48,698 nucleotides of DNA, taken from Colwellia sp. D2M02 (GTDB lineage: Bacteria; Pseudomonadota; Gammaproteobacteria; Enterobacterales; Alteromonadaceae). The notes under the pieces are model-generated. The model did no database searches. It was not told where the DNA came from and was given only the letters and a program-made list of their open reading frames with translations. A program made the translations under genes and the position numbers. The stretch lies in contig NZ_JAHKPW010000050.1 in the NCBI RefSeq assembly GCF_018860755.1, positions 5,803 to 54,500 on the forward strand. Direction: 5' to 3'. Of the stretch, positions 16,830 to 45,051 are shown in pieces. Each line of letters opens with the position of its first letter. Within the stretch, counting starts at the first letter, position 1.

Positions 16830-16879
16830 GGAGTTCTCCTAATATGGTTTTTTTATGCTAAAAATAGCGTAAAAAATCC

Positions 16880-17197: not shown

Positions 17198-17242
17198 AGA
17201 TATTCTCTATTAAAATCTCAACGAGAGAGCCATCACAAATGA

Positions 17243-18802: not shown

Positions 18803-18911
18803 TTAATACTCTCTGCTTTTATCAATAGGGTTTAGGGGCTGTTGACCTTTCAAACTTAAATTTGCAGCTATCTGTTTAGTATTTAAGCAAGGCAGCGCCT
18901 CTATGGTGTGA

Positions 18912-21470: not shown

Positions 21471-21522
21471 AATAATTCCTATGTATTTTAAAAGTTTTGA
21501 TATATTAGTGGCTAATAGTTGT

Positions 21523-22956: not shown

Positions 22957-22996
22957 ACCTGCCCTCTTAACTACTTTATGATTGAGTTATCAAACC

Positions 22997-23383
22997 TTAT
23001 GGAGCTTTATAACAAGTCACATCAACTTCAACTTTACAATCAACAACCAAGTCGGCCACTAAACAAATTCGCGCTGGAGGATGTTCACCAAAAAATTCTT
23101 TAAAGACTTTATTAAATGATTGGAAATATCGAGAATCAGTCAACACAACCGAAACATGAGTAACATGCTCAAGACCATAGTTAGCCTCGGTCATAATCTC
23201 GATACAGTTTTCAATAGCAATACGCGATTGTTCGATAATGCCACCTTCAACCACTTCACCATCTCGCATTGGTGTTTGACCTGAGACCTTTAACCAACCA
23301 CCCGCTTCAACTGCACGAGAAAAAGGTAAATGTTGTCCACCGGTACCTTTACCGCCTTCAACACCATAACGTTTAATTGTCAT
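22997..23383 (-). CDS. RidA family enamine/imine deaminase
   Basis: 128-aa member of the YjgF/YER057c/RidA family, which hydrolyses reactive enamines released by PLP dehydratases. The catalytic Arg is kept in HPPARICLVADLVVDCKVEVDVTCY, and LPFSRAVEAGGWLKVSGQTPMRDGE carries the usual N-terminal pattern. In the operon with a D-serine dehydratase-like enzyme, clearing 2-aminoacrylate-type intermediates is a natural role. It is not the typical housekeeping RidA sequence, so it is probably pathway specific. AAGGA precedes the ATG. Confidence 0.9.
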   Translation of the reverse strand: MTIKRYGVEGGKGTGGQHLPFSRAVEAGGWLKVSGQTPMRDGEVVEGGIIEQSRIAIENCIEIMTEANYGLEHVTHVSVVLTDSRYFQSFNKVFKEFFGEHPPARICLVADLVVDCKVEVDVTCYKAP

Positions 23384-23484
23384 TGTTTTTTCCTTACTTA
23401 TCTGACTTTATTTATAAAAATGGATTTATTTAAATTTATTTACATTCTTGACTATTTTTAGTGCTTATTGTGCTAGCAAACGTG

Positions 23485-25002: not shown

Positions 25003-25005
25003 GTA

Positions 25006-25890: not shown

Positions 25891-25929
25891 TGATTTACTC
25901 TATTTTAAAGGTTACTAATAATGGTTTAG

Positions 25930-27162: not shown

Positions 27163-27689
27163 ACCTTAGACCTATTCGCCTTGCTTACTTACCTATGCTC
27201 ACTTACCTAGAAAGATATATCAACGAACAATATCATAATGGTCAATTAACAACCAAAAATGTAAATATATGTTGATTTTTACCACATACTAATGTTAAAA
27301 AGTAACAAGTTCAATACTTAATGATTGTTATTTTATAACCTTACGTATCAAAAAGACAATAACGTATAATAAGTTAATTTAAGTGAATAATAATTCATTG
27401 TGATATGGTGACTATATACCTAAACAGTGGGGCGGCTTAGGTAAATGTACATTAGTAATATATGCCATATTATTTCTGTACATATTAAGGAGAGCCTTTA
27501 TAAAAAACCTAATTATCAATATGTTAATTGGATTTAATATCAACTTTAATACATAGGTGTTCTTTATAGGGAGAGAATATTCACTTAATTAATAGAGTTG
27601 CTATGACAGGCGTAACAAGAAAAAAATAAATAAAACCTAAGGCTATATAAAGAGCCAAATATTAAAATAATAAATATTGAGGGTATACA
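27163..27689. promoter_or_regulatory. Divergent control region between the catabolic operon and TonB receptor 1
   Basis: 527-base AT-rich gap with no plausible gene. Visible symmetry: TACCTAA (27417-27423) mirrored by TTAGGTA (27437-27443) with a 13-base spacer, a TGAATAATAATTCA palindrome near 27384-27397, and two direct TGTACAT copies near 27446 and 27477. Any of these could be operators for the RpiR protein. GAGGG at the right end is the ribosome site of the receptor gene. Confidence 0.4.
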
Positions 27690-30600: not shown

Positions 30601-30965
30601 ACTCGTTCCGCCAGTTTACTAACTTACCATTACAAGGGTATTCTGATCAGAACTTCAACATTGTCGGCATGTATGAAAAATACGACTTCTCACTTCGCCT
30701 AGCTTACACATGGCGCTCTGAGTATCTATTAACTTTACGTGAGTCTGAAGAGTTCGTCCCTGCTTACTCTGAAGCGCAAGGCATGATGGATGCTAGTCTT
30801 TTCTACAACATTACCGATAATGTCAAAATTGGCCTAACGGTAAATAATGTTTTAGATTCAGACACTAAAACTAAATATCAACAAAATCAGGAAGGGACAT
30901 TAACCGATGCCTTTACCTTTACGACAGACCGTCGTTACTCGTTGAGTCTTAGCGCTGTTTTCTAG
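27690..30965 (+). CDS. TonB-dependent outer-membrane receptor 1 (1091 aa)
   Basis: Energised outer-membrane importer of the Xanthomonas/Caulobacter-type TonB receptor group. Signal peptide 1-28, TonB-box-like EVIQVVGMR (about 43-51), and a plug domain about 60-190 with DIGALPDVSVTEALQRLPGVTIER and GGIAGTVNLVTRKAF. A 22-strand barrel follows, ending RRYSLSLSAVF with a terminal Phe. The extracellular loops are long, as in receptors for oligosaccharides or peptides and unlike short siderophore receptors. No Fur box is upstream. It is divergent from the D-amino-acid/GH20 operon and followed by halogenases, so its ligand is likely the compound that the island processes. Confidence 0.93.
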   Translation: MSSKFERKRLAIAISAAVAYSVSTAAFAADDVNKKEVKDEDLEVIQVVGMRNSINSAQNLKRHADTVKDVITAADIGALPDVSVTEALQRLPGVTIERFASSSDPKHFADEGTGVLIRGLDRVRSEVNGRDSFSANPHGGLSYEDFPAELLGAVEVVKNQTADLISGGIAGTVNLVTRKAFDSEEPVFAFTAKANYGDYREEVTPSFSALFSDSWDTDAGKFGVLVAGSYSEHKSRGDGFGLGNFHSRGPADTFSYDEWGTPSPGVIAGQYSNPCIPGASDWRACGADLGDTVQYSEQDAANYTAPFEAQELEGQPEGSTWYAPASYTMTSAENDRKRQGLTASLQWQSNDERITATLEHISSEASLEWREHVIASGDRGFLSYAPNGIQWFDGYEGNNQDYPLTVDSNGYVTSGVGRGTSPDLPLQFRSRYNYNESTVDDTSLNVVFKATDRLTVAFDYQHIDSEQIVHNNSLTSRINGNQTSEHAPFFLDLRGDTPTLEYLNSNTSMPPDVDADTNPILRLASGMQQEEHNEASSDAIKLDFEYALDGAFTAIKAGVYYSEKELTVRDTDYEGWQALGTPWNAQASYNASPQVEPGLFDRISFADHYKGDSLVGANNSFLFPRMDLAQNYAQTLRDGCGTWSANGNAMDGSGGCALAYADVGDRVFSHFAPRHISSSETQRTEFYVRGDFDFDISDIIIKGNVGLRYVDYQLQSTGGINTPATARRGTSESDSLYQVMLNDYPSIFALASGESFASTVDGTDYTTILPSLNLSFGLTDELIVRFGASKGLYYPSLVDSANKMNISLDYQEVLLDPSQGKDEATNPTVDLRNIEISANARNAFLEPEESINLDLTTEWYFADAGSVTVGLFHKKLSNIIRNKQFSTEVEVDGTTYPVSAYGPDNTGSGTIRGVELAYSQFYDMLPGVFSGLGMQFNYTYIDQNGLEDPNTSPAEQLQYNGAGVPVTDNRNSFRQFTNLPLQGYSDQNFNIVGMYEKYDFSLRLAYTWRSEYLLTLRESEEFVPAYSEAQGMMDASLFYNITDNVKIGLTVNNVLDSDTKTKYQQNQEGTLTDAFTFTTDRRYSLSLSAVF

Positions 30966-30992
30966 TAGCTAAAAAAGTAGAAAAGGTAATAT

Positions 30993-31030
30993 AAACGGCG
31001 CTGTAGCAATGCAGCGTCGTTTATTTACTT
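30993..31030 (+). terminator. Terminator after TonB receptor 1
   Basis: AAACGGCGCTG (30993-31003) pairs with CAGCGTCGTTT (31012-31022) with one G-U pair, loop 8, then a T-rich tail (TTATTTACTTT begins inside the stem end). This separates the receptor from the halogenase genes, at least partly. Confidence 0.65.
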
Positions 31031-31131
31031 TAGGGGCTGTAGAAAGTAATCTCGAAATATCAACGCCACTAATACAAGCTCACAAACCCACGAGAAAATA
31101 ATATAACACTTATTATAAATACGGCCTTATT

Positions 31132-32637
31132 ATGCAAAACGCTTTAAAATCTATCTGTATTGTTGGTGGCGGTACCGCCGGCTGGATGGCAGCAACACTC
31201 CTTTCAAGTGCTTTAAGAGGCAGTAAAATTCAAATTACTGTCGTGGAGTCACCTGATATTGCGACCATAGGTGTAGGTGAGTCTACCGTACCTTCAATGA
31301 TGGACTTTATACAAGCAAGTCAAATTAACTTAAAAGAGTTTATTCAAGCAACTTCTGCTACTTTCAAGTTAGGCATACGCTTTGATGACTGGTTAACCCA
31401 AGGCGAAAGCTATTTTCACCCTTTTGGTAAAGTGGGCAAAGACATCAACGGTTTTGAGTTTTATCAAGCCTGGTTGAAATCACTTGCTGATGGAGAAAAA
31501 TCACGCTGGCTTGACTTTTCTCCAAGCGCTATCATGGCTGAAAACGAACGTTTTATGTTACGCCCCGCAAAGCATGATAACTGGGTACTATCAAGTTATG
31601 CCCATGCGCTACATTTAGATGCCGTAAAAGTTGCTCACTATTTACGTGATCTTTGCCATAAACGCGGAGTTACTCGTATTGAAGCCACAGTGAAAAACGT
31701 TAATCTAGATGAAAAGGATTTTATAAAAAGTGTTGAACTTGACAATGACACAAGCCTTACCAGTGATTTTTTTATCGACTGCACTGGCTTTCACGGACTA
31801 TTAATTGAAAAGTCATTACAAGTTGGCTTTGAAGACTGGTCGCATTATTTACCTTGTAATCGCGCTGTTGCAGTACAAACTGAACAAGTAAATAACCCCG
31901 TTCCTTATACAATAGCAACCGCACAAAAAGCGGGTTGGTCTTGGAGCATTCCTTTACAGCATAGGGTGGGTAATGGTTATGTTTTTGCTAGCCAGTTCTG
32001 TAGTGACGAACAAGCAATGGAAACCTTACTTAAGCAAATCAAAGGGAAAATGCTAAATGAACCTAGAGTTATTCCGTTTACAACCGGAAGACGGAAAAAA
32101 ATATGGCACAATAACTGTTTAGCTTTAGGGTTAGCAGGTGGATTTTTAGAGCCCTTAGAGTCAACGGCTATTCATTTAGTTTATAAATCGCTGGTCCATT
32201 TTATCAAGCACTTCCCTGATAGCGACTTTGATGCTTATAACGAGCAAGCCTTTAACGACAACATTAATACCGATTACCAAGAAATTCGAGATTTTATTAT
32301 TTTACATTATTGCACTTCGGGTCGTGACGATAGTGATTTTTGGCAATGGTGCCAAACCATGCCTGTTCCTAAGTCGCTGAACGAGAAAATACGTAAGTTT
32401 CGAGAACGTGGTCAATTAGATCATACATTAGGCCAGTTTTTTACAAATGACAGTTGGTGTTCTATTTTAGAAGGAATGAAAATTCGTCCTAAAAAATACC
32501 ACCCGCTATTAGATGCGTTTCATCAGCAAGACCTAACCAATACATTAACTAAAAATATTAATGATATTCGTGCTACGGTAAAACAAATGCCTAATCACCA
32601 CGAATATATTCAAACGCATTGCCAAGCGTGTAATTAA
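31132..32637 (+). CDS. Flavin-dependent halogenase 1 (PrnA-like, 501 aa)
   Basis: Tryptophan-halogenase-family enzyme using FADH2, O2 and halide. FAD motif VGGGTAGWMA (11-20), GVGEST (47-52), catalytic Lys K79 in SATFKLGIRF (the same number as in PrnA), WSWSIP signature (269-274), and catalytic Glu E343 in FLEPLESTAIH. All expected residues are present, so I predict an active halogenase. The aromatic substrate is unknown; the substrate-binding C-terminal part differs from tryptophan-specific enzymes. Close relative of halogenase 4 (shared SHYLPCNRAV, GNGYVF and LESTAIHLV segments). First gene of a three-gene stretch with the cupin_8 gene (38-base gap) and halogenase 2. A 166-base gap with a terminator separates it from the receptor. 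Confidence 0.92.
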   Translation: MQNALKSICIVGGGTAGWMAATLLSSALRGSKIQITVVESPDIATIGVGESTVPSMMDFIQASQINLKEFIQATSATFKLGIRFDDWLTQGESYFHPFGKVGKDINGFEFYQAWLKSLADGEKSRWLDFSPSAIMAENERFMLRPAKHDNWVLSSYAHALHLDAVKVAHYLRDLCHKRGVTRIEATVKNVNLDEKDFIKSVELDNDTSLTSDFFIDCTGFHGLLIEKSLQVGFEDWSHYLPCNRAVAVQTEQVNNPVPYTIATAQKAGWSWSIPLQHRVGNGYVFASQFCSDEQAMETLLKQIKGKMLNEPRVIPFTTGRRKKIWHNNCLALGLAGGFLEPLESTAIHLVYKSLVHFIKHFPDSDFDAYNEQAFNDNINTDYQEIRDFIILHYCTSGRDDSDFWQWCQTMPVPKSLNEKIRKFRERGQLDHTLGQFFTNDSWCSILEGMKIRPKKYHPLLDAFHQQDLTNTLTKNINDIRATVKQMPNHHEYIQTHCQACN

Positions 32638-32675
32638 TTAAAAAGTAAGATTATGAAAGGTGTCAATAAAAGTAA

Positions 32676-33704
32676 ATGACCGTATATAAAAGCATTTCAG
32701 AGTACAACCTACATAGTGCAACATTAAGTGCCGCACAGTTTTTTCAAGAAGTTGCCCCTGCGCAAAAGCCTATCGTCATCCGTGGGTTTGTTAAAAACTG
32801 GCCATTAGTGGCTGCAGCTCAAAAATCACCTAACGCTTTTGTCGATTATTTAAATCAGTTTTATCAAGGGACAAAAGCCAAAATGCTCGTAGCTCCCCCC
32901 GCGGCTAACAAGCGCTTTTATTATAACGAAGAGATGACCGATGTTAACTATTTAAGTGGCGAAGAGCGTGTTGATCTTTTTCTAGGACGTTTACTTGAAC
33001 TAATTGATCGCGAGACTTACCCTGCCATTTCTATGCAAAATGCACGCACTAGCGATATTTTACCTGGCTTAGTTCAGGATAATCAGTCTGACTTCTTTCC
33101 TCACATTGAACCACGCTTATGGGTTGGTAATGAAGGCATTGTTAGCGCTCATTATGATGGCTCCGATAATATCGCGTGTGTTGTTGCAGGTCGCAGACGC
33201 TTTATACTTTTTCCACCCGAGCAAACAGCGAATTTATACCCTGGTTCACTCAACTTTACCCCTGCTGGAGCCCCAACAAGCTTAGTTAACTTTGCACAGC
33301 CTGATTATGAGCGTTATCCATTATTTAAACAGGCACAAGCCGCCGCATATAGCGCAGAGTTAGCCCCTGGTGACGCTATTTTCATTCCTATGCTTTGGTG
33401 GCACCACGTTGAATCTTTATCAAAAGTAAATGCGTTAATGAATTACTGGTGGAATGGTTCTTCCGCGCCAAATGCAATATCTCCTAGCCCTATTGATAGT
33501 TTAAATATAGCATTACTTGCTATGCGAGATTTGAGCCCTAAACAGCGCGATGCTTGGCGCTGCATGTTCGATCATTACTTGTTCAAACAAGGTGTCGATC
33601 CAGCTTCTTATATTCCTGAACATCAGCATCATTTACTCGGCGATTTATCCCCTGAATATATTACAGCGGTTAAAGAATACTTCGTTACCAAGCTTAAACA
33701 GTAA
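32676..33704 (+). CDS. Cupin_8 / JmjC-like Fe(II)/2-oxoglutarate oxygenase
   Basis: 342-aa single-domain JmjC-type protein of the FIH-1/cupin_8 group. The iron facial triad is complete: H159-Y-D161 (SAHYDGSDN) and distal H244 in the hallmark WWHHVESL. K/R residues after the strand (VVAGRRRFILFPP) fit 2-oxoglutarate binding. The N-terminal KPIVIRGFVKNWPL opening is typical. Substrates may be a protein side chain or a small molecule. It lies between halogenases 1 and 2, a grouping also seen near TonB receptors in Xanthomonas- and Caulobacter-type genomes. Shine-Dalgarno is weak (AAAGG about 14 bases upstream). Confidence 0.88.
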   Translation: MTVYKSISEYNLHSATLSAAQFFQEVAPAQKPIVIRGFVKNWPLVAAAQKSPNAFVDYLNQFYQGTKAKMLVAPPAANKRFYYNEEMTDVNYLSGEERVDLFLGRLLELIDRETYPAISMQNARTSDILPGLVQDNQSDFFPHIEPRLWVGNEGIVSAHYDGSDNIACVVAGRRRFILFPPEQTANLYPGSLNFTPAGAPTSLVNFAQPDYERYPLFKQAQAAAYSAELAPGDAIFIPMLWWHHVESLSKVNALMNYWWNGSSAPNAISPSPIDSLNIALLAMRDLSPKQRDAWRCMFDHYLFKQGVDPASYIPEHQHHLLGDLSPEYITAVKEYFVTKLKQ

Positions 33705-33746
33705 TTCCTCAAAGTACTTAAAATAATAAAGAATGAGCATAAAACA

Positions 33747-35252
33747 ATGTTAAATAATGACGGCAAGCCAAAAAAAATAGTAATTGTAGGTGGTGGTACT
33801 GCAGGTTGGATGGCAGCCAACTTACTCGCTTCTCGGTGGAAAAACACTGAAATTTGTTTAGTTGAATCCGAACAAATAGGCATTATTGGCGTGGGTGAAG
33901 GCAGTACACCGCATTTAAAATTATTTTTTGATGCCATAGGCGTTACTGACTCACAATGGATGCCCCATTGTAATGCCACCTACAAAAATGGTATTACTTT
34001 TGATAAGTGGTCAAACATTAAAGGTTTTGAGTCTTACTTTCATCCCTTTGCCGCACAAACTGACGATATGTTAACCGTACCGATTTTTTTCAAAAATATT
34101 CAAGCAAAAATGCAGGGCTATGATGTTAACGCACATCCTGATAGTTATTTTTTAGAGACCTATTTATCGAAAAATAACTTAGGGCCTTTACCTGCTGAAA
34201 GTTTCCCTTTTGGTATTGCTTACGGCTATCACTTTGATTCTGCACTGTTAGGGAAGTTCTTAGCTAAACATGCGCAAAGTCTAGGTGTAAAAAAAATCGT
34301 CAGTACTGTTAGTGACGTATTAGTACATAACGACGGTAATTTAAATGCAGTAAAGCTAAGTGATCAAACCTTACTTGAAGCCGACTTTTTCTTAGATTGT
34401 TCTGGTTTTAATTCGTTATTAATGCAAAAAACCTTAAAAGTTAACTATCAAAGCTTTAAAGATAATTTATTCAATGACTCTGCTGTTGTTATGCCCAGTG
34501 AAATATCATCAATACTGCCAGTAGAAACCAAAGCCACCGCACTTACTAACGGTTGGGCTTGGCAAATACCGTTACAAAACCGTTTTGGCAATGGTTATGT
34601 TTATAGCAGTGATTATATCAATGCCGATCAAGCTGAAACGGAACTGAGAGATCATTTAGGTTTATTAGATAGCGATGTCGAAGCAAGACATTTGAAAATG
34701 AAAGTAGGTAGGGTTGAAAAGCATTGGCATAAAAACTGTTTAGCGGTTGGGCTATCACAAGGTTTTATCGAGCCTTTAGAGGCAACAGCAATAGCACTTT
34801 CCTTTAATACCGTTTCGCAATTTATGCTTCACTATCAAGAGGGTGAAGGTACTAATAAATTTGAATCAGCATTTAATCAAGATATAAACTCAAGGTTTGA
34901 TGGCATTAGAGACTATGTGGTTTGCCACTACAAAGCCAACCAACGCCTTGATACTGATTATTGGCGAGATAATGCCAAAAATAGCAACATATCAGAGACG
35001 TTAGGTCGAATATTATACCTGTGGACCAATAGTCAAAATTTCGCTGACGATATGATTAAATATAAACTAATGGGCAGCTACCAGCCTAAGTCATGGGCTT
35101 GTATGTTGGCTGGTTATGGTGTATTCCCGCAGACAAGTACAAGTCAAACAATTGATTATACAGCGCATCACCAAGAAATGGCTGGTTTGGGTGACTTCAT
35201 TCGCCGTTGTGGCTTAAACTTTAACGCTCATAACAGCTTACTAACGCCCTAA
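33747..35252 (+). CDS. Flavin-dependent halogenase 2 (PrnA-like, divergent, 501 aa)
   Basis: FAD motif VGGGTAGWMA (14-23), GVGEGST instead of GVGEAT, catalytic Lys K80 (NATYKNGITF), WAWQIP (270-275), and catalytic Glu E345 in FIEPLEATAIA, where Ser of the usual LEST is Ala. Family core present, so probably active, but this is the most divergent of the five: it shares fewer stretches with the others and carries its own segment GPLPAESFPFGIAYGYHFD. A different substrate is likely. It follows the cupin_8 gene by 42 bases and is followed by a strong inverted repeat at 35285-35320. Confidence 0.9.
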   Translation: MLNNDGKPKKIVIVGGGTAGWMAANLLASRWKNTEICLVESEQIGIIGVGEGSTPHLKLFFDAIGVTDSQWMPHCNATYKNGITFDKWSNIKGFESYFHPFAAQTDDMLTVPIFFKNIQAKMQGYDVNAHPDSYFLETYLSKNNLGPLPAESFPFGIAYGYHFDSALLGKFLAKHAQSLGVKKIVSTVSDVLVHNDGNLNAVKLSDQTLLEADFFLDCSGFNSLLMQKTLKVNYQSFKDNLFNDSAVVMPSEISSILPVETKATALTNGWAWQIPLQNRFGNGYVYSSDYINADQAETELRDHLGLLDSDVEARHLKMKVGRVEKHWHKNCLAVGLSQGFIEPLEATAIALSFNTVSQFMLHYQEGEGTNKFESAFNQDINSRFDGIRDYVVCHYKANQRLDTDYWRDNAKNSNISETLGRILYLWTNSQNFADDMIKYKLMGSYQPKSWACMLAGYGVFPQTSTSQTIDYTAHHQEMAGLGDFIRRCGLNFNAHNSLLTP

Positions 35253-35284
35253 GAATAACGCCCTAAGAAATAAGATAACTTTTC

Positions 35285-35320
35285 GCACCTTCGATAAAAC
35301 GTACATATTATCGAAGGTGC
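35285..35320 (+). terminator. Hairpin after halogenase 2
   Basis: 13-bp perfect stem GCACCTTCGATAA/TTATCGAAGGTGC (35285-35297 with 35308-35320), loop 10. No immediate T tract follows, so it may end transcripts inefficiently or protect the mRNA 3' end. Confidence 0.5.
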
Positions 35321-35441
35321 CTCACATAGCTTTTCCTGCACAACCTCACTTCTCATATTTTCTTATCGTTAACGGTTATAAGTTAAACATAATGATTTAT
35401 TAATAAACAAAAAAAATGGTTGCTTTCCTCTCTCCTAGAAT

Positions 35442-35486
35442 GTTACAAATTAACAACCTACACGGAAGTAAGTGTTAATTTGTAAC
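35442..35486. repeat. 14-bp perfect inverted repeat upstream of TonB receptor 2
   Basis: GTTACAAATTAACA (35442-35455) mirrored by TGTTAATTTGTAAC (35473-35486), spacer 17. About 390 bases before the receptor start in a 622-base gap (35253-35874) without a gene. Could be a two-site operator or a cruciform. Confidence 0.55.
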
Positions 35487-35534
35487 TTAAGTGGCAAATA
35501 ATCATTCCTAAAATGTGGGTTGAAAGTGGATTGA

Positions 35535-35552
35535 TAGTTAATTTATTAACTA
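35535..35552. promoter_or_regulatory. Palindrome TAGTTAAT-TT-ATTAACTA
   Basis: Perfect 8-2-8 symmetry in the same gap. The AT-rich inner part recalls the AATTAACA arm of the neighbouring repeat. Candidate regulator site; no known consensus is claimed. Confidence 0.4.
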
Positions 35553-35668
35553 TTAATCATAGAGTTAATGCTTTTAACAAATTCATGCCTCGCCCTTACA
35601 CACACTGCTTGCTTGAATATTAACGCATTTAACTTCTTTGAATAAAATCACTTTCTCTTATTGGTATT

Positions 35669-35787
35669 TACCTGTATGCAGGTACTTTTTTGTTCATAAA
35701 TTGCAACGTGTATTTATAAAAATGACAGCGTTCGACATTTAAATGAAAAAGCAGTAGAAAAGTACCTGAATGCATTTGAAAAGTACC
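35669..35787. promoter_or_regulatory. Candidate operator cluster for TonB receptor 2
   Basis: TACCTG-TATG-CAGGTA (35669-35684) is a palindrome. GGTACTTTT continues from its right arm (35681-35689), and the same word occurs inverted twice more as AAAAGTACC (35758-35766 and 35779-35787). Three copies of one word, about 90 to 200 bases before the start codon, suggest binding sites for a dimeric regulator. Confidence 0.45.
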
Positions 35788-35874
35788 ACTATTGTTTTAA
35801 ATACCAGAGAAAATTGAACTGAAAACGTACTAACTCTAATTATAAATAATAAAAAACATGTTAAGGGTCCTATT

Positions 35875-38800
35875 GTGTCAAATATAAAATTTAAAAAAAG
35901 TTTGTTATCAACAAGCATAGCTGTAGTCTTATCTACCAGCGCTGTTCCATATGCAATGGCTGCAGAAGATACCGCTAGCTCAGTAAAAGATGATGTAGAA
36001 GTAATACAGGTTTCAGGTATTCGTGGTAGTACCAAAGCAAGTATTAACGGCAAACGCTTTGCTACTTCTCAAGTAGACGGTATTGCAGCAGAAGACATTG
36101 GTAAATTACCAGATGTTACTATTGCTGACTCATTACAACGTATTACTGGTGTTCAAGTTGAACGTACCGCTGGTGAAGGCGGTCCTGTTGCAATTCGTGG
36201 TTTACCTCAAATTGGTTCAACCCTAAATGGTGAAGTATTTTTAAGTGCAACGACCATTGATTCATCGGGTGCCGACTTTGGTGATTTACCATCACAATTA
36301 TTCTCAGGTGTAGATGTGTATAAATCATCTGAAGCTGCACGCACTGCTGGCGGTATTTCAGGCTCTATAGATTTACACACGCGTCGTCCTTTCGATATGG
36401 ATAGCGGTTGGACATTTAACGCTGGTGCTGACGTAACTCGTGGCTCTATTAGTCAAGAAAGTGATCCAAACCTAAATGGTTTAGTAAGTTATAACTCGGA
36501 TCGTTTTGGTGTGTTATTTTCTGCAGTAACACAAGAAGTTACTTTAGCGACTGACTATAACGGCTATTTCGATACCTCTGAAAATGGTGGCATTGGCGCA
36601 GCAAACAACAACTTTACTTGGGGTCCAAACCCACAAGGTAACACTACTCGTCATGTAGTACCGCAAGGTTTTTCTGCCTTTAACAAAGAAGAGACTCGTG
36701 AGCGTCAAGGTTACCAGTTATCTTTACAAGCGGACTTAGGTGAAGGTTTCGAGCTAACTTTTGATGCATTTTACACAGATCAGCAACGCTTCAATAATCG
36801 TCAAGGTTTCTCACAAAATAACCGTTGGAACTCATTTAATGACTACGCTTACCCTGTTGATGGGGATAGCTGGACAGGCGATACCTTTACTGATAAAAAT
36901 GGCGATTTATGGGGTGGGGTTAATGAATTTGCCTTAAAACCTTACCGTATGCAGACTTTTACTCAAGTTAACGGCAATGAAGAAAAGTCTAAAAACCTTA
37001 ACCTAGAATTAAACTACAACAATGGTGGTAACTTAACCGGCCAAGTACGTATGACACGTGCTACAGCAACTAAGAAAATGCGTCATGGTTACGGCGAAGG
37101 CGATATGTTAAGTATTGACCAAGGCACTTTGGTTACAGGCCCAGGTCAATTTTCACAAGGTGAAAACTGTGGACCTAACGACGTTATTGTTGGCGATCGT
37201 GGTGGTTGTTATGCCACATTCGCACCAGGTGGCATTCAAGATGATTCTTTCTTATTACAATACAATGCAGCGAATGGCTCTCCAATATTTAGTGGTTTCG
37301 ATCAAATGGTTAATGGTGGCCAAGGTATGCAAAGTGTTGCCGATTACATGGGCAATATAGACTCTTACCATATTGGCGCTTTCTCTTCAGAAGGTAACAC
37401 TGATGATGACGCATCAATTAACACCTTCAGCACCAAGTGGAATTATGCCTTTGATGATATGCCATTTATTACCAGTGTAGATTTTGGTGTACGTTACATG
37501 GAACGTGAAGTAGATCATGACCAATTTACCTACACTTCTGAGTTTGGTGATGGTTGTGATATTGCACAGTGGAAAGCGGTTGACCAATACCATACTAATG
37601 CTACTTGTGAAGGCAACCCAGCAGCAGGTGAATACTTAACTGCAGATGTTGGTGACCTTGCAGCAGGTACGTGGGTTCCTTACACGCTTTTACCACCAAC
37701 ACGTTTAGACGAACATACAACGGTTAGTCAAATGTCTAACTTTGGTAGTGCACAAGGTATTCCTACCATGTGGGCTATTGATCCAAGTAACTTTAAAAAC
37801 CCACGCCAGTTCCATTTAGACACGTTCGGCAATGTTCAACGTACTGAAAATGGTGGTGCTACTTATGATGTTGGTTTAGAAGAGTTTAGCTACTTCTTAC
37901 AAGCTAATTTCGAACAAGGTATTGTAAGTGGTAACTTTGGTTTAAAAGTTATTGAAACTGACTTATACGTTAAGCAAAACTTAACAGGTCCTAATCTACC
38001 ACACAGTGGTTTAGGTCCAGATGTAGGTGATGCCGTTACGACCAGAGATTATACAGATTACTTACCATCGCTTAACGTTGCTGTAGCCGCAACTGATGAT
38101 ATTATCTTCCGTTTTGCTTACTCTAAAAATGTTGAATCACTAGACCTTGCTAACTGGGGTGGCGGTAAAACCGTAGGTAAAGTTAACAGTGATGATTGTG
38201 ATTGTTTACGCGTAGTAAACGGTACTCTGACGGGTAACCCGAGTTTAGATCCATGGCGTTCAGAGAACTTCTCATTAACGGCTGAGTGGTATAATGGTGA
38301 TGCATCTATGATGTTCATTTCTGCCTACAAAATTGATATTGAAAGCTTTACGACTCCAGGTACTGTAATGATCGACGAGCCTGATGATGATGGCATCAGC
38401 CGTGGTCCATGGCCTTTTTCAACTCAAGTACAAGGCGATGGCGGTTATGTTAATGGTATTGAAGTCGGAGCAAGAGTCGCTTTTAATGACTTTATGGATA
38501 TCCCGTTCATTAATAACTTAGGCTTAGATGCTAACTATACTTACAGTGATAGCAGCCAAGGTACAAAAGATGTATCAGGCAACGATATGCCTTTCATTGG
38601 TAATTCAAGAGACACTTACAACTTAGTGTTATGGTATGAGCAAGAAGAATTTTCAACGCGTTTTGCCTGGAACTCACGTAGCCCACGCTTAATGACTGAA
38701 GGCTCTGATGCTGTTGGCCGTCAAGCATTGTATCAAGATACTTACTCACAACTTGATTTCAACGCCAACTTCCATGTTACTGAAAACGTAGATGTATTTA

Positions 38801-38919
38801 TTAATGGTTCAAACATTTTAGAAGAAGTTCAACAGACTTATTTAGAGTTTTCTTCACAAAAAGCGTTCCGTAATGAATATGAAGCACGTTGGACATTAGG
38901 TGCTCGTGTAACATTCTAA
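35875..38919 (+). CDS. TonB-dependent outer-membrane receptor 2 (1014 aa)
   Basis: Signal peptide about 1-29 (VPYAMAAED), TonB-box-like EVIQVSGIRGS (about 42-52), and a plug with DIGKLPDVTIADSLQRITGVQVER, VAIRGLPQIGSTLNGEVF and AGGISGSIDLHTRRPF. The barrel ends TLGARVTF with terminal Phe. It belongs to the same Xanthomonas/Caulobacter-type group as receptor 1 but is clearly a different protein, not a recent duplicate. Start is GTG at 35875 with AAGGG seven bases upstream. A strong terminator follows. It stands between halogenases 2 and 3 with long control regions on the left, so it is probably transcribed alone and separately regulated. Confidence 0.93.
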   Translation: MSNIKFKKSLLSTSIAVVLSTSAVPYAMAAEDTASSVKDDVEVIQVSGIRGSTKASINGKRFATSQVDGIAAEDIGKLPDVTIADSLQRITGVQVERTAGEGGPVAIRGLPQIGSTLNGEVFLSATTIDSSGADFGDLPSQLFSGVDVYKSSEAARTAGGISGSIDLHTRRPFDMDSGWTFNAGADVTRGSISQESDPNLNGLVSYNSDRFGVLFSAVTQEVTLATDYNGYFDTSENGGIGAANNNFTWGPNPQGNTTRHVVPQGFSAFNKEETRERQGYQLSLQADLGEGFELTFDAFYTDQQRFNNRQGFSQNNRWNSFNDYAYPVDGDSWTGDTFTDKNGDLWGGVNEFALKPYRMQTFTQVNGNEEKSKNLNLELNYNNGGNLTGQVRMTRATATKKMRHGYGEGDMLSIDQGTLVTGPGQFSQGENCGPNDVIVGDRGGCYATFAPGGIQDDSFLLQYNAANGSPIFSGFDQMVNGGQGMQSVADYMGNIDSYHIGAFSSEGNTDDDASINTFSTKWNYAFDDMPFITSVDFGVRYMEREVDHDQFTYTSEFGDGCDIAQWKAVDQYHTNATCEGNPAAGEYLTADVGDLAAGTWVPYTLLPPTRLDEHTTVSQMSNFGSAQGIPTMWAIDPSNFKNPRQFHLDTFGNVQRTENGGATYDVGLEEFSYFLQANFEQGIVSGNFGLKVIETDLYVKQNLTGPNLPHSGLGPDVGDAVTTRDYTDYLPSLNVAVAATDDIIFRFAYSKNVESLDLANWGGGKTVGKVNSDDCDCLRVVNGTLTGNPSLDPWRSENFSLTAEWYNGDASMMFISAYKIDIESFTTPGTVMIDEPDDDGISRGPWPFSTQVQGDGGYVNGIEVGARVAFNDFMDIPFINNLGLDANYTYSDSSQGTKDVSGNDMPFIGNSRDTYNLVLWYEQEEFSTRFAWNSRSPRLMTEGSDAVGRQALYQDTYSQLDFNANFHVTENVDVFINGSNILEEVQQTYLEFSSQKAFRNEYEARWTLGARVTF

Positions 38920-38983
38920 TTTAACGATTAAATACTATACACTTTAGCGTAACTTTCACAAAATGTGCGGGTTGCGCACTTTA

Positions 38984-39015
38984 AAAACGCCGCATATTTT
39001 GCGGCGTTTTTGTCT
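38984..39015 (+). terminator. Rho-independent terminator of TonB receptor 2
   Basis: AAAACGCCGC (38984-38993) pairs with GCGGCGTTTT (39001-39010), loop ATATTTT, followed by TGTCT. A smaller GTGCG/CGCAC hairpin precedes it. MITE copy C begins only a few bases beyond. Confidence 0.9.
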
Positions 39016-39018
39016 AGT

Positions 39019-39227
39019 TAACCTGAACTTGGTTTAAGAGATATTTAACAAATTGAAATATCAGCAAAAATTACTTTTCTGAACCGATAGCTTGATAGTT
39101 TTTCTTTTTTTCATATGATAAACAAGGAAAATTTCGCGTCAATAGCTGGCCTATTGCAAGTAAATTTAACGAAGAAGTTAGGAAAAATAGCTGCTAGAGA
39201 AACATTTGTTAAGCCGATCTCAGGTTA
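39019..39227 (+). repeat. MITE-like element, copy C (209 bp, long form)
   Basis: Ends TAACCTGAACTTGGTTTAA and TTAAGCCGATCTCAGGTTA. Internal modules: GAGATATTTAACAAATTGAAA, ATTACTTTTCTGAACCGA, CTTGATAG...CATATG, a central part with ATTTCGCGTCAATAGCTGG, and GGAAAAATAGCTGCTAGAGAA. No open reading frame of note, so it would need a transposase elsewhere. It fills most of the 410-base gap 38920-39329; the remaining 100 bases before halogenase 3 show no clear promoter. Confidence 0.88.
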
Positions 39228-39329
39228 GTTATATTAGTACTATGTATTAAATAAGGGCTGAATAAAATATGATATTCCCCTACTAGTACTCACTGGTTAC
39301 TTATTACAATAAATAATGAGAAAATAAAG

Positions 39330-40856
39330 ATGACATCAAACGAGATCACATCAATTGTGATTGCTGGTGGTGGTACGTCCGGTTGGATGACTGCAGCAGC
39401 ACTAAGCCATCACTTTACTTCCACCTTCCCTGATAAAAAAATAGCGATAACCTTAGTCGAGTCATCACAATTAGGTACTATTGGAGTTGGTGAAGCAACT
39501 ATTCCGACGCTACGTCGATTTTATCAAAAGCTCGGATTTACTGATATTGATGTTATCAAAGCCACCAATGCTACCTGTAAATTAGGTATCGAATTTAAAG
39601 GCTGGACTGATAATAACAGTAACTTCATTCATCCCTTTGGTTTATTTGGGCAAGGTACCAAAGAAGTTCCCTTTATTCACTATTGGCTTAAAGCACAAAA
39701 AAACGCTAGCACCAACAGCAATGATCTCAATGACTTCTCTCTTGGGGTAAACTTAGCTCAGCAAAACAAATTCTTTTTTCCTCCCGAAAAGCCTAACAGC
39801 CAACTCGATATATTTGACTGGGCTTTACATTTTGATGCCGCACTTTTTGCCAACCTCATGCGCGAATATTCAGTCAATCACGGGGTTCAGCTAATTGACA
39901 ATATTATTGAAGTCGTCAATATTTCTCCAACTTCTGGCAACATTGACTCCTTAACCTTTAAAGACGGGACATCAGTCTCCGCTGATTTGTTTATCGACTG
40001 TTCAGGCTTTAAAGCATTACTTATTGAAGGTGCTTTAAAAACTGGATTTGATAATTGGAGTCATTGGCTATTTAACGATAGCGCTGTTGCAGTACAAAGT
40101 AAAATCACTTCTACTCCTATCACGCGCACTATTTCTCAAGCAAAATCTGCGGGTTGGCAATGGCAAATCCCTTTACAAAATCGCATGGGTAATGGTTATG
40201 TTTTTAGTAGTCAATATCTTGATAAAGAGTCTGCAAAAGCATCGTTACTCGCAGATATTGACGGTGATATTTTACATGAACCAAGAAGCTTCACCTTTAC
40301 GCCAGGCAGGAGAAAAAAAGCATGGAATAAAAACTGTATCGCCGTAGGGCTTTCCTCAGGCTTTTTAGAACCTTTAGAAAGTACCAGTATCGCCTTAGTT
40401 GAAACAGCTATTGAAAAAATAATTCTATCGTTTAACACTCCTCATTATAACGATAATGACATCAATCGCTTCAATGAAGTAAATGCTCTTGAGTATGAAC
40501 GAGTAAGAGACTTTATTATTTTTCACTATAAGGCGAATCAACGTAATGACAGCCCTATGTGGCAACGCTACAGAGATATGGAAATACCTGAGAAACTCGC
40601 TGAAAAAATGCAGCAGTTTAAAGAAACGGGTAATATTATTCGCTACCCATGGGAAATTTTTGGTGCTGATAGCTGGCTGGCAGTATTTAATGGCTTAAAC
40701 TATTTACCAACAAATTATGATGCTAGAGCAGATAAAATGGATAATGACTATTTACAGCTACATTTAGAAAAAATGAAAAAAATAATCAAACAGCAAGTCG
40801 ATAATGCACCAACGCATACACAGTTTTTGGTGAAATATTGTGGCTACCAACCCTAA
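39330..40856 (+). CDS. Flavin-dependent halogenase 3 (PrnA-like, 508 aa)
   Basis: FAD motif AGGGTSGWM (12-20), GVGEATIP (52-59), catalytic Lys K84 in NATCKLGIEF, WQWQIPLQNR signature, and catalytic Glu in FLEPLESTSIALV. All expected catalytic residues are present. An insert around STNSNDLNDFSLG is not seen in halogenases 1 and 4. Nearest to halogenase 5 in the GIEF.GW region. It is 34 bases upstream of halogenase 4, so they form a pair. The MITE copy C separates this pair from the receptor. Confidence 0.92.
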   Translation: MTSNEITSIVIAGGGTSGWMTAAALSHHFTSTFPDKKIAITLVESSQLGTIGVGEATIPTLRRFYQKLGFTDIDVIKATNATCKLGIEFKGWTDNNSNFIHPFGLFGQGTKEVPFIHYWLKAQKNASTNSNDLNDFSLGVNLAQQNKFFFPPEKPNSQLDIFDWALHFDAALFANLMREYSVNHGVQLIDNIIEVVNISPTSGNIDSLTFKDGTSVSADLFIDCSGFKALLIEGALKTGFDNWSHWLFNDSAVAVQSKITSTPITRTISQAKSAGWQWQIPLQNRMGNGYVFSSQYLDKESAKASLLADIDGDILHEPRSFTFTPGRRKKAWNKNCIAVGLSSGFLEPLESTSIALVETAIEKIILSFNTPHYNDNDINRFNEVNALEYERVRDFIIFHYKANQRNDSPMWQRYRDMEIPEKLAEKMQQFKETGNIIRYPWEIFGADSWLAVFNGLNYLPTNYDARADKMDNDYLQLHLEKMKKIIKQQVDNAPTHTQFLVKYCGYQP

Positions 40857-40890
40857 TAATAAGTTAGTAATTTAAATAAGAGTGAAACAA

Positions 40891-42405
40891 ATGCAGGTCA
40901 CGGAAAACACAATTAAAAAGTTTGTTATTGTTGGAGGAGGCACCGCTGGTTGGGTTGCTGCAGCAACGTTAGGAAATATTTTCAAAGATAGTGATGTTAC
41001 TGTTGAGCTAGTTGAATCGCCTGATGTTGCCATTATCGGTGTTGGTGAAGCAACTATACCACCTTTTTTAGAAACTATTCGCAGCCTTGGTATTGATGAA
41101 GCGGAGTTTATTAAAGCAACGCAAGCAAGCTTTAAGTGGGGTATTCGTTTTGAGAACTGGCATAAAAAAGATCACGCTTACTTCCACCCTTTTGGCTCTT
41201 TAGGTCGAGATATTGATGGACACGAGTTTTATCAATGTTGGCTAAAATCAAAAGCAGAAGGTGATGAAACGCCTTTAATGGCACACTCTCCTGAGTCGGT
41301 ATTATCAGATCATAATCGATTTTTTCTCCCGTTTAAAGCAATGGGAACGCCTTTAGCATCTGCACATTATGCTTTGCATTTAGATGCGGTATTGGTTGGT
41401 CGTTATTTAAGAGACTTCGCTAAAAGTATTGGGGTTATTCGCACAGAAGGGCATGTTGAAGCGGTTATTAAAAATGAACAAGGTTTTATCAATAGTGTTA
41501 CTTTAAAAGATGGACGTGAGGTCAACGGTGACTTCTTCATTGATTGCACAGGATTTAAAGGCTTATTAATCGAGGAAGCCTTACAGACAGGTTATGACGA
41601 CTGGTCTCATTATTTACCCTGCAATAGAGCCGTTACTGTTCAAACAAAAAATATCGGTGAAACAACTCCTTATACAACATCAAGAGCACAAAATGCAGGT
41701 TGGACGTGGCGTATTCCACTACAGCATAGAACGGGCAACGGTTATGTTTTTTGTGATAAATACTGCAGTGATGAAGACGCTATTGCCACTTTACTAGCCA
41801 ACATAGAGGGAGAGCCTATTACTACACCTAAAGTGATCCCTTTTGTTACAGGGATCCGTAAACAAGCTTGGAATAAAAACTGTTTGGCCCTTGGTTTAGC
41901 GCAAGGCTTTCTTGAACCATTAGAGTCTACCGCGATTCATTTGGTTTCAAAAACTTTAGCTTTTTTTGTGCGTTTATTTCCAACAAAAGAATGTAACCCT
42001 ATATTGATGTCTGAGTTTAACCGTCGTGTAAAAGCCGACTATGAAGAAATTCGTGATTTTCTGGTACTGCATTACTCCGCCACAGAGCGTGATGACACTG
42101 AATTTTGGCGTTGGTGTCAAAACATGGAGATACCTGCAACTTTACAAAAAAAATTAGACTTCTTTAAAGTTTCAGGTGGATTAATTCCTGGTGTTGAAGA
42201 ATTATTTCAGCCAACCAGTTGGTATGCAGTATTAGATGGTATGGGTATCACACCTAAAAATTATAACCCAACATTAGATGCCTTAAATTACTCGCAGTTA
42301 AATAAAAGTTTAACCAGTGGTAAGCAAGCAATTGAACAAGTAGTTAAATTACAACCAAGTCATGATGAATTTATTCAACAATACTGCCGAGCGCCAATAC
42401 CTTAA
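40891..42405 (+). CDS. Flavin-dependent halogenase 4 (PrnA-like, 504 aa)
   Basis: FAD motif VGGGTAGWVA, GVGEATIP, catalytic Lys K82 in QASFKWGIRF, WTWRIPLQHR, and catalytic Glu in FLEPLESTAIHLV. Predicted active. Closely related to halogenase 1 (shared FHPFG...GRDI-G-EFYQ.WLKS and DWSHYLPCNRAV segments), pointing to duplication inside or before the island. I start at the ATG at 40891 because AAGAG lies eight bases before it; a GTG at 40882 overlaps that site. It ends just before a bidirectional terminator facing halogenase 5. Confidence 0.92.
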   Translation: MQVTENTIKKFVIVGGGTAGWVAAATLGNIFKDSDVTVELVESPDVAIIGVGEATIPPFLETIRSLGIDEAEFIKATQASFKWGIRFENWHKKDHAYFHPFGSLGRDIDGHEFYQCWLKSKAEGDETPLMAHSPESVLSDHNRFFLPFKAMGTPLASAHYALHLDAVLVGRYLRDFAKSIGVIRTEGHVEAVIKNEQGFINSVTLKDGREVNGDFFIDCTGFKGLLIEEALQTGYDDWSHYLPCNRAVTVQTKNIGETTPYTTSRAQNAGWTWRIPLQHRTGNGYVFCDKYCSDEDAIATLLANIEGEPITTPKVIPFVTGIRKQAWNKNCLALGLAQGFLEPLESTAIHLVSKTLAFFVRLFPTKECNPILMSEFNRRVKADYEEIRDFLVLHYSATERDDTEFWRWCQNMEIPATLQKKLDFFKVSGGLIPGVEELFQPTSWYAVLDGMGITPKNYNPTLDALNYSQLNKSLTSGKQAIEQVVKLQPSHDEFIQQYCRAPIP

Positions 42406-42419
42406 TTACTTTTTAAAAT

Positions 42420-42458
42420 AACCAAAAAGGAAGTGCTAAACGCACTCCCTTTTTGGTT
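42420..42458. terminator. Bidirectional terminator between halogenases 4 and 5
   Basis: AACCAAAAAGG (42420-42430) pairs with CCTTTTTGGTT (42448-42458), with an inner AGTGC/GCACT stem and a TAAAC loop. Sixteen base pairs in total with one mismatch. T run on either strand; fits the convergent genes. Confidence 0.85.
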
Positions 42459-42495
42459 ACTCGACTAAGTTAACACGATCAATGAATCACTTTAC

Positions 42496-44007
42496 TTAAA
42501 GATCACTTTTCGCACGACAATGCTTTTCAATAAAAGCTTGGTGCGACATCGCTTGCTCTGCCGCGCCATAAATAGAGTTACGCATTTGCATTAATTTTTG
42601 CTCTATCATCTTTGAGTCAAGGTTTTTAATCCGAACATCATAGCGCTGCGGCACAACCTTAAAGCCGTGATACATCGACAGCCAACTAGCCTCTTCAAAC
42701 GACTCATGATCATGCATCACAATATGTCCTTGGCTTTTAAATACCTCAATTTTATGTGCTAACGTGTCAGATATTTTCATTTGCTGGCAGTAGCGCCAAA
42801 ACTCAGTATCGTCACGCTTGGTTAACTTATAATGCATAGCTAAAAAGTCAACAATACGGTCAAGCTCTGTGCTGTGCAAACGGTTTACCTCAGCAATATC
42901 AGCTTCATTGAATGATTTATCTGGGAAGAAAGTTAAGAGTTTAGCCAACGCCGTTTGAATTAAAGAAATCCCTAACGACTCTAGTGGCTCAAGAAAACCG
43001 CCTGCTAGCCCTAAAGAAAAACAGTTTTTATGCCAGGTTTTTTCTCGTCGCCCTAATGGAAAAGTGAAGTGTCTAACATCATTAATGGTTTGACCTTGAA
43101 CGCTTGCCAGTAGGCTATCTTCAGCGGCTTGTTTGTCGCTAAACTCGCTGCTGTAAATGTAGCCATTCCCCATACGGTGTTGCAATGGAATTTGCCACTG
43201 CCAACCCGCCTCTTTAGCAATAGCGCGCGTATAAGGCAGTGGTCTTCCTGCCAACTCAGTTTGTACAGCAACCGCACTATTACAAGGTAACCACTGACTT
43301 AAATCATCTAAACCAATGCCCATAGCACCTTCAATTAATAACCCTTTAAAACCTGAGCAATCAATAAATAAATCACCAAAAATACAACGTCCATCATCAA
43401 GTTCAACCGATTCAATAAAACCCGATTCCTTATTTAAATGAACCTTATCAACATTAGCGAGAATATGTTCAACCCCTTGTTTAACCGAAAAATCAGTTAA
43501 GAACTTGCCATATAAGGCGGCATCTAAATGATACGCATAAGAATAGTCAGCCATAGGGTTAGTAGGATTTGGGTGCGGCTGGGCAAAATTACCCTGTTTA
43601 GCTAACACACAAGCAAAGCTGTAATCTTGCAAATCCAATGAATAACCTTCACTGTTGAGCTTGTTAATATAATGATGAAACTCTACGTTATCGACTTTCA
43701 TGCCGTAGTCAGCAAACGGGTGGAAAAAGCGCGTGTCTTTTTGGTGCCAACCTTCAAACTCAATACCGAGTTTAAAAGTAGCTTGTGTTGCTTTAATTAA
43801 CTCAACTTCATCAATACCTAAGTTTCGATTAAATGAAACAATATTAGGGATAGTTGCTTCACCAACACCTACGGTATTGATGCTAGGCGACTCAATTAAG
43901 GTAACGGTAATATTTTTATCTTTAACGTAGCGTGACAAGCTAGCTGCAGCCATCCACCCCGTTGTACCACCGCCAACAATTACAATTTTTTCAATGCCCT
44001 CTGACAT
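42496..44007 (-). CDS. Flavin-dependent halogenase 5 (PrnA-like, 503 aa)
   Basis: FAD motif VGGGTTGWMA (11-20), GVGEATIP, catalytic Lys K79 in QATFKLGIEF, WQWQIPLQHR, and catalytic Glu in FLEPLESLGIS. The Thr after Ser of LEST, whose backbone helps hold halide in PrnA-type enzymes, is Leu here; since the contact is through the main chain, activity may be kept. It is the only halogenase on the minus strand, with its own upstream gap (44008-44190, no clear promoter), so it is an independent unit. Nearest to halogenase 3. Confidence 0.92.
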   Translation of the reverse strand: MSEGIEKIVIVGGGTTGWMAAASLSRYVKDKNITVTLIESPSINTVGVGEATIPNIVSFNRNLGIDEVELIKATQATFKLGIEFEGWHQKDTRFFHPFADYGMKVDNVEFHHYINKLNSEGYSLDLQDYSFACVLAKQGNFAQPHPNPTNPMADYSYAYHLDAALYGKFLTDFSVKQGVEHILANVDKVHLNKESGFIESVELDDGRCIFGDLFIDCSGFKGLLIEGAMGIGLDDLSQWLPCNSAVAVQTELAGRPLPYTRAIAKEAGWQWQIPLQHRMGNGYIYSSEFSDKQAAEDSLLASVQGQTINDVRHFTFPLGRREKTWHKNCFSLGLAGGFLEPLESLGISLIQTALAKLLTFFPDKSFNEADIAEVNRLHSTELDRIVDFLAMHYKLTKRDDTEFWRYCQQMKISDTLAHKIEVFKSQGHIVMHDHESFEEASWLSMYHGFKVVPQRYDVRIKNLDSKMIEQKLMQMRNSIYGAAEQAMSHQAFIEKHCRAKSDL

Positions 44008-44263: not shown

Positions 44264-44298
44264 GTGTTTAGTGTTTAGTGTTTAGTGTTTAGTGTTTA
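44264..44298. repeat. Five tandem copies of the 7-mer GTGTTTA at the rlmB stop
   Basis: Exact heptamer tandem array. On the minus strand it reads TAAACAC repeated, and the first TAA is the rlmB stop codon. Copy-number change would alter only the 3' untranslated region. Confidence 0.9.
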
Positions 44299-45051
44299 AG
44301 CAGAGCGTTGACGCACTATTTCAAATAAACAAATACCTGTTGCCACAGATACGTTTAAGCTAGAAACACTACCTGCCATAGGAAGTTTCACTAGCTGATC
44401 ACAATTTTCTCGCGTTAGTCGACGCATGCCCTTACCTTCTGCCCCCATCACTAACGCCATCGGACCTGAAAGTTTGGTCTCATAAAGGCAAGTGTCTGTT
44501 TCGCCGGCAGTACCAATAATCCACACACCCATTTGTTGTAATTGCTTCATAGTACGTACTAAGTTAGTCACTTGCACTAAGGGTACATATTCTGCTGCAC
44601 CAACCGCTACTTTACGCACAGTTGGTGTTAAGCGTGCGGCATTGTCTTTCGGTACAATAATCGCTTGTACACCTGCGGCGTCAGCATTACGTAAACAAGC
44701 GCCTAAATTATGCGTGTCGGTAACACCATCTAAAATAAGTAAAAATGGAGGTTGACCTTTTTTCTCTGCACTAGCAAGAATGTCGTCTAAATCATTTTCG
44801 GTAAAAACTTTACCCGGCCTAACACGCGCAACCACACCTTGGTGCTGCTCACCCTCGCTTTTTTCATCAAGAAATTTACGCTGTACCATTTGTGTTGAAA
44901 TACCGTACTTACGCGCTAAGTTAATAATTGGCATAAGGCGTTCATCTTCTCGGCCTTTTAATAACCAAATCTCAATAAAACGCTCGGGAGCGCTGTCAAT
45001 TAAGGCATTAATTGCGTGAATACCAAAAACTAACTCTTCATTTTTCGCCAT
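44296..45051 (-). CDS. rlmB: 23S rRNA (guanosine2251-2'-O)-methyltransferase RlmB
   Basis: SpoU-family knotted methyltransferase modifying Gm2251 of 23S rRNA. An N-terminal substrate-binding domain (about 1-75; [11 protein letters not shown]) precedes SpoU motifs 1 ([20 protein letters not shown]), 2 ([15 protein letters not shown]) and 3 ([19 protein letters not shown]). 251 aa is standard. AAGAG precedes the ATG. Downstream of rnr by about 100 bases on the same strand, as in enterics. The stop lies in a heptamer tandem repeat. Confidence 0.96.

Follow-up and report, generated by a model that had tools for sequence, protein, structure and literature searches.

Why a marine bacterium should place five flavin-dependent halogenases beside two TonB-dependent receptors is the question raised by a locus of Colwellia sp. 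D2M02. The stretch analysed here (48,698 nucleotides, positions 5,803 to 54,500 of contig NZ_JAHKPW010000050.1, assembly GCF_018860755.1; termed the window, with positions counted from its first nucleotide) harbors these genes within 16.3 kb (27690–44007). This agrees with a preliminary description of the same DNA, which had counted five complete halogenases and two receptors in 16 kb. The locus is described below as a composite, probably co-regulated chitin-uptake island with mostly BrvH-type halogenases. The preliminary description mentioned neither its two-module make-up, nor a Cupin_8 gene between the first two halogenase genes, nor an operon divergent from the first receptor gene that resembles the ong cluster.

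As read from the sequence, the halogenase cluster is composed of two adjoining modules. Module A comprises, all on the plus strand, receptor T1 (27690–30965, in the position of ongOT-1), halogenase H1 (31132–32637), the Cupin_8 gene (32676–33704) and halogenase H2 (33747–35252). Module B consists of receptor T2 (35875–38919), H3 (39330–40856) and H4 (40882–42405, with a start perhaps at the ATG at 40891, judging from the frame of relative L020) on the plus strand, and H5 (42496–44007) on the minus strand. T1 and T2 score 560 and 484 bits against NCBIfam TIGR01782 (TonB-Xanth-Caul), well above its cut-off of 310 bits. The Cupin_8 protein (PF13621, 237 bits) resembles Fe(II)/2-oxoglutarate oxygenases of the FIH type; its best PDB match is human FIH, and HYD as well as HH lie within the stretch aligned to it.

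Pfam model Trp_halogenase (PF04820) is spanned almost entirely by H1 to H5, at 413 (H2) to 585 bits (572 for H1) against a cut-off of 21. The motifs listed in the preliminary description are indeed complete: GGGT[AST]GW for flavin adenine dinucleotide (FAD), WxWxIP, the catalytic lysine (K79, K80, K84, K85 and K79 in H1 to H5) and the glutamate of EPLE (E343, E345, E350, E348 and E343) are each present in five out of five proteins. In an alignment with BrvH, 6y1w, 9luq and PyrH, the lysine and the glutamate correspond to K79 and E346 of PrnA. EPLEA is found in H2 and EPLES in the other four, and the HPF motif, which we take to lie next to the ring site, is kept in all five. The catalytic reading of the five halogenases is likely right, their fold and tunnel geometry being taken from homologues. 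Since their mutual identity is 33–50%, H1 to H5 are best regarded as old paralogues without recent duplication.

The nearest solved relatives of H1, H3, H4 and H5 are BrvH (6frl), 6y1w and 9luq, and not PrnA or RebH; H3 is closest to BrvH, and H1 matches 9luq and 6frl best. The substrate loop of these four has the short length seen in BrvH, as aligned by eye, and together with the nearest PDB chains this fits them to the BrvH-type indole brominases. H2 belongs to a different clade and is not of the BrvH type, with the tryptophan (Trp) halogenases 6nsd and 8fov as best matches in the PDB. The residues that hold the amino and carboxyl groups of Trp in RebH (Y454, Y455 and E461) are not evident by eye in the alignment of H1 to H5, which makes free Trp an unlikely substrate and agrees with the earlier statement that, in some cases, such enzymes do not act on it. 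By eye, the H2 loop has PyrH length and is devoid of Tyr-Tyr at this place, presuming a mapping of the lid-loop residues from RebH to PyrH. Elsewhere, at G000:C2:35889-36986, a 416-residue open frame with weak PF04820 matches (35–37 bits) perhaps encodes another FAD enzyme.

Divergent from T1, a minus-strand operon displays the gene content and order of the ong cluster without kdgK; this match is one of Pfam types and order to the published description, and not one of identity to the ACAM 620 proteins. Starting next to T1, it encodes an ongC-like pyridoxal-phosphate D-amino-acid dehydratase of the D-serine dehydratase kind (25930–27162; PF14031 and PF01168), an ongR-like RpiR/MurR family regulator (25006–25890; PF01418 and PF01380, with HexR as best NCBIfam match, below cut-off), an ongB-like amidohydrolase of the D-aminoacylase deacetylase type (23485–25002; PF07969), an ongD-like RidA protein (22997–23383; PF01042), an ongIT-like sodium:solute symporter (21523–22956; PF00474, TIGR00813 being below cut-off) and an ongA-like GH20 beta-hexosaminidase (18912–21470; PF00728, 333 bits) of the published type. 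Together with the TonB-dependent receptor, all these ong types are present at the island; by Pfam, none of the seven open reading frames (ORFs) of at least 120 residues at 17804–27162 is a sugar kinase such as kdgK. In Pseudoalteromonas, the cluster as described imports and degrades C1-oxidised chitooligosaccharides, is laid out as ongOT-1, ongCRBD and ongIT-kdgK-ongA, and is governed by OngR, which represses ongOT-1 and ongCRBD (PMC9537276).

Both modules are probably under OngR control, since a paired palindrome GTTAN5TAAC is found only upstream of T1 and of T2. The first pair (27294–27339, half-pairs at 27294 and 27327, 33 bp apart) lies in the ongC–T1 gap and the second (35442–35486, at 35442 and 35474, 32 bp apart) in front of T2, as two candidate OngR operators. 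They are the only two sites in the 4.01 Mb genome, in which the reversed pattern does not occur, and by their coordinates they stand at similar distances from the receptor starts (351 bp for T1, 389 bp for T2). The pattern was chosen after conserved sequence upstream of ongC had been seen and is thus post hoc. The pair at ongC–T1 recurs in L026 and L041, so that all three genus members with ongC (G000, G008 and G035) carry it, and it is absent from G047 and G056, which possess ongC outside the genus, and from the T2 locus L020 of G001. Another palindrome (35529–35558) was dropped as an operator because the window holds no second copy.

Each module also occurs on its own in relatives. Module A recurs next to ongC and ongR genes in G008 (L026) and G035 (L041), with 72–83% identity over its four genes; a T2 match was not obtained in G008 at an E-value of 1e-200, in a search that did not extend to G035. 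In Colwellia sp. 1_MG-2023 (L188), module A is located between two GH18 genes, with no ong genes in the 21 kb seen. One GH18 protein beside this copy (L188:3247-6021) carries a C-terminal match to a LytTR DNA-binding domain in the same frame. Module B recurs in G001 (L020; 72–82% identity), a genome without an ongC match, and is situated there downstream of rplI, at the opposite end of the same rpsF–rplI operon that borders the island of the window (16131–17656; the other border is rlmB, 44296–45051). At L020, a polysaccharide deacetylase with a CBM5/12 carbohydrate-binding module follows two genes past T2. Further copies of module B are found in Thalassotalea litorea (L176; 60–67% identity), where its neighbours are a GH20 gene and a gluconolactonase-like one, and in Cellvibrionaceae AOL6 (L190; 50–54%), where it adjoins a GH9 gene. 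By best BLAST match, its three halogenases remain distinct across these genera. Relatives of the modules are thus accompanied by GH18, GH20 and chitin-deacetylase-like genes, with the GH9 gene beside a single module B copy.

Across the genus and the order, in 61 genomes, at least 150 PF04820 matches were listed, weaker ones standing outside the list. Joined at gaps of up to 8 kb, the listed matches give 122 clusters: 98 singles, 22 pairs, one triple and the present quintet as the largest, so that five genes in one locus are indeed a high number, as had been claimed. In the 120 loci considered further (that of the window included, two clusters of G051 left out), a receptor is located within 6 kb of 160 of 176 halogenases, and nine of the 16 remaining ones sit at contig ends. 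Viewed from the receptors of five genomes, 16 of the 47 above the cut-off have a listed halogenase linked to them; G012 has neither a receptor above the cut-off nor a halogenase match. Two halogenase homologues with altered catalytic residues (L129:10797-12329 and, near a contig end, L131:7677-9167; either glutamate to Q, or lysine and glutamate to S and G) each adjoin a normal halogenase and have no receptor closer than 6 kb. From a scan in which every species was represented by one genome (GTDB), the best 80 of at least 585 loci were evaluated. There, 33 loci hold one halogenase, 22 two, 14 three and six four, and a receptor is present in 43 of the 55 full-length loci; five loci count none despite having been retrieved through a match, presumably owing to a fault of the simple ORF caller. 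According to the locus maps, the linkage extends to Caulobacter and other genera. No paper on it was found in the Creative Commons-licensed literature of PubMed Central, outside which subscription journals mostly lie.

From their neighbours, with one Pfam-searched representative per gene family, the 120 loci were labelled as N-acetylglucosamine (GlcNAc; 28), beta-glucan (29), starch (26) or ong (2), 33 being without label. The likely ligands of the receptors are sugars. On a FastTree tree of 174 halogenases, references included, sugar labels change eight times over the 127 labelled tips (the 47 unlabelled ones left out) compared with 54–70 times (mean 62.7) in 300 shuffles. Each halogenase type hence tends to keep to a single kind of sugar locus, some agreement being inevitable from shared ancestry. 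Throughout the tree, the catalytic lysine is conserved in 173, the glutamate in 172 and both in 172 of the 174 proteins; each Trp of WxW is kept in 172, and the final proline of WxWxIP in only 104.

Other enzymes accompany the halogenases as well: SapC adjoins them in 60 loci, Cupin_8 in 22 and DUF6445 in 20, each family being named from one representative or from the window gene. SapC (PF07277), represented by L021:11608-12378 on contig C1 of the genome that holds the window, adjoins halogenases and receptors there and at 59 further loci. It yields a confident AlphaFold model (mean pLDDT, the predicted local distance difference test, 90.6) for which neither Foldseek nor VIA-align returned a PDB fold match. 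DUF6445 (PF20043, a family of unknown function in Pfam; L021:12407-13165, same contig) displays an HxD...H...R pattern and a predicted fold like that of prolyl/lysyl hydroxylases. The linked accessory enzymes, FIH-like Cupin_8 and DUF6445, thereby resemble protein hydroxylases.

Taken together, we tentatively favor, at somewhat less than even confidence, that H1 to H5 serve, as dedicated accessory enzymes, two chitin-oligosaccharide uptake modules switched by OngR, and that they halogenate a protein partner. The T1 and T2 modules would take up chitin-derived, probably C1-oxidised, oligosaccharides across the outer membrane. As the sequence shows, modules A and B form separate conserved units in relatives and stand together here beside the ong-like catabolic operon, and in the presence of the oxidised chitin sugar the RpiR-type OngR might switch both on together, as the paired palindromes suggest. 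By homology, HOBr or HOCl (hypobromous or hypochlorous acid) would be generated at the FAD and travel down the tunnel to the catalytic lysine, which together with the glutamate would halogenate an aromatic ring, rich in electrons and seated in an open pocket. This ring could be a Trp, tyrosine or similar side chain of a protein from the same operon, with the TonB-dependent receptor as first candidate, and the FIH-like Cupin_8 enzyme could hydroxylate the same partner. Each receptor module would in this way possess its own set of oxidative protein-modifying enzymes.

Several observations weigh against this proposal. The AOL6 copy of module B lies next to GH9 and not next to a chitin gene, which speaks against a purely chitin-related role. 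For DUF6445, the top Foldseek rows are mixed 2-oxoglutarate oxygenases, most of which act on small molecules, and some such enzymes (PasI, PolD and EasH) are returned by VIA-align as well. Trp content is 1.28% in 103 linked and 1.26% in 29 unlinked receptors (p = 0.57), the largest difference at a single Trp column being 59% versus 31%; receptor Trp was therefore set aside as halogenation target. The unlinked set was defined from listed halogenases, and unlisted weaker ones in G008 could adjoin some of its members. Differences between linked and unlinked receptors in their content of H, M and N, or at individual columns, are confounded by ancestry. Moreover, the halogenases look cytoplasmic, because their sequences begin with the FAD motif or close to it, and receptors exit the cell unfolded; modification would therefore have to take place before export, or on another protein. 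The halogenases are dispensable for ong catabolism itself, since ongC- and ongR-like genes occur in G047, a genome without a halogenase match, and the published eight-gene ong cluster lists none. Finally, OngR binding is read from the palindromes alone: the pair is present in 13 of 61 genomes, in ten of them without ongC, and the reversed control in two.

Other explanations have to be measured against the same data. The substrate of the enzymes might be a small aromatic in free form, for instance indole or a simple phenol, which they would brominate to a diffusible antimicrobial or signal that guards the sugar source and is induced with sugar uptake. Retention of the HPF motif would suit this, and bromide is available to an organism of the sea. 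In vitro, BrvH accepts indole for bromination, with bromide as the preferred halide (PMC5945002). However, SrpI acts on free indole too, and the cited accounts point to a peptide as its likely real substrate (PMC10286304, PMC12615548). Furthermore, matches to PF01212 in the window genome are weak (best 40.8 bits, in a 551-residue frame, versus 281.7 in G036), so that no tryptophanase and no obvious indole source were found there and free indole was set aside as substrate. A single metabolite would also leave three distinct halogenases per receptor unexplained, and we consider this explanation unlikely. Somewhat less probable still is that the protein partner of the favored proposal is modified in vivo by H1 to H5 acting as flavin hydroxylases or oxidases, like relatives of QhpG or LodB, with halogenation as a side activity. 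Weak matches to the QhpG, LodB and GoxB models, below cut-off, the oxygenase families of the partner enzymes and the frequent loss of the final proline of WxWxIP are in line with it. Monooxygenases, though, need neither the halogenation lysine and glutamate nor the Trp residues of WxW, and precisely these are kept almost throughout the tree.

A chance pile-up of redundant paralogues without joint function would fit with relatives that hold modules A and B apart. Against it stand the paired palindrome, shared by both modules and present nowhere else in the genome, the intact catalytic residues of all five enzymes and their low mutual identity, which make this a quite improbable origin of the quintet. 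Least probable of all, and to be given hardly any credence, is the proposal of the preliminary description, namely a halogenated aromatic that the island would produce or alter and that would be linked to the imported ligand or carried by it. The halogenases do adjoin receptors, but where labelled these receptors lie in chitin, GlcNAc, starch or beta-glucan loci, and the proposal is not supported since the likely ligands are sugars. Core genes for non-ribosomal peptide synthetases, polyketide synthases, ribosomally synthesized and post-translationally modified peptides (RiPPs) or terpenes were absent from the 29 searched of the 35 window ORFs of at least 120 residues, and a natural-product pathway reading of the island is not supported. 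A RiPP precursor was likewise rejected: of the small ORFs listed in six intergenic gaps, none stood out as a conserved protein, and blastn of five gaps against stretches of four other genomes, without a formal coding test, gave short matches only, the strongest being upstream of ongC/T1 and of T2.

Some further elements complete the locus. A strong hairpin between T1 and H1 (30991–31024, plus strand) could set the dosage of receptor to halogenase as an attenuator. A perfect 12-bp inverted repeat 3' of T2 (38983–39011, plus strand) ends in a T run and is terminator-like; it is absent from one hairpin scan of the window. The ong-like operon ends in an SMP-30/gluconolactonase-like gene (17804–18802, minus strand; PF08450, 124.5 bits), possibly a lactonase for a C1-oxidised sugar. 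A 55% identical relative adjoins the H5 relative in Thalassotalea litorea L176, and the gene may accordingly belong to module B. The ORF after rlmB (45151–47619) was read as rnr by its sequence alone.

To our knowledge, no natural role has been assigned to many of the BrvH-like halogenases found in marine and soil bacteria, and the tendency is to take them for hidden natural-product enzymes. The present data link them to receptors for sugars, one kind of sugar at a time, and, in this genome, probably to a single regulator with a single inducer (GlcNAc1A), which points to an expression condition and to the proteins to examine first by mass spectrometry. This suggests a new, testable role for a halogenase class of unclear purpose and calls for caution in genome mining, as the number of halogenases in genomes of this kind is not necessarily a sign of halogenated natural products. 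A doubtful generalisation is that sugar-specific TonB-dependent receptors across Proteobacteria have private sets of oxidative enzymes for protein modification (flavin halogenases, FIH-like Cupin_8, prolyl/lysyl-hydroxylase-like DUF6445 and SapC), and that nutrient capture is adjusted, or the binding of phages or toxins prevented, by halogenation of an envelope protein, which could be the receptor. If true, this would be, as far as we know, the first case outside peptide natural products in which a bacterial protein is halogenated by dedicated enzymes.

With the ong cluster of Pseudoalteromonas ACAM 620, as published, the island shares the receptor gene, the C-R-B-D genes, the symporter and GH20; it lacks kdgK and gains the gluconolactonase-like gene, and T2, the Cupin_8 gene and the five halogenases lie outside the published list of eight genes, the word halogenase appearing nowhere in the main text of that paper (PMC9537276).

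Of the enzymes, 6y1w, which is presumably Xcc4156 of Xanthomonas campestris, and 9luq, which H1 and H5 match best in the PDB, are 40–45% identical to H1, H3, H4 and H5. By leaf order of the tree, both stand apart from H1 to H5, 6y1w being surrounded by halogenases from beta-glucan loci and 9luq close to those from starch and unlabelled loci. PrnA, RebH and PyrH have the family, FAD motif, lysine, glutamate and WxWxIP in common with H1 to H5 and differ in the Trp-holding residues, not evident here, and in the natural-product genes, which are missing around the island. BrvH, a metagenomic brominase from Botany Bay, is 50.5% identical to H3 and 41–42% to H1, H4 and H5, with the same motifs and loop length. 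The brvH gene adjoins another halogenase gene too; in the published account BrvH is given no natural role, (PMC5945002), whereas H1 to H5 are encoded alongside an FIH-like oxygenase at a locus for sugar uptake, and H2 is of another clade. The peptide halogenases SrpI and MibH, likened by description and not by sequence, are flavin-dependent like H1 to H5 and differ by their RiPP precursor, none having been found in the gaps of the island. As reported, SrpI shows the in vitro signature of BrvH, accepting indole and not free Trp, and MibH requires a hydroxylated substrate (PMC10286304, PMC12615548).

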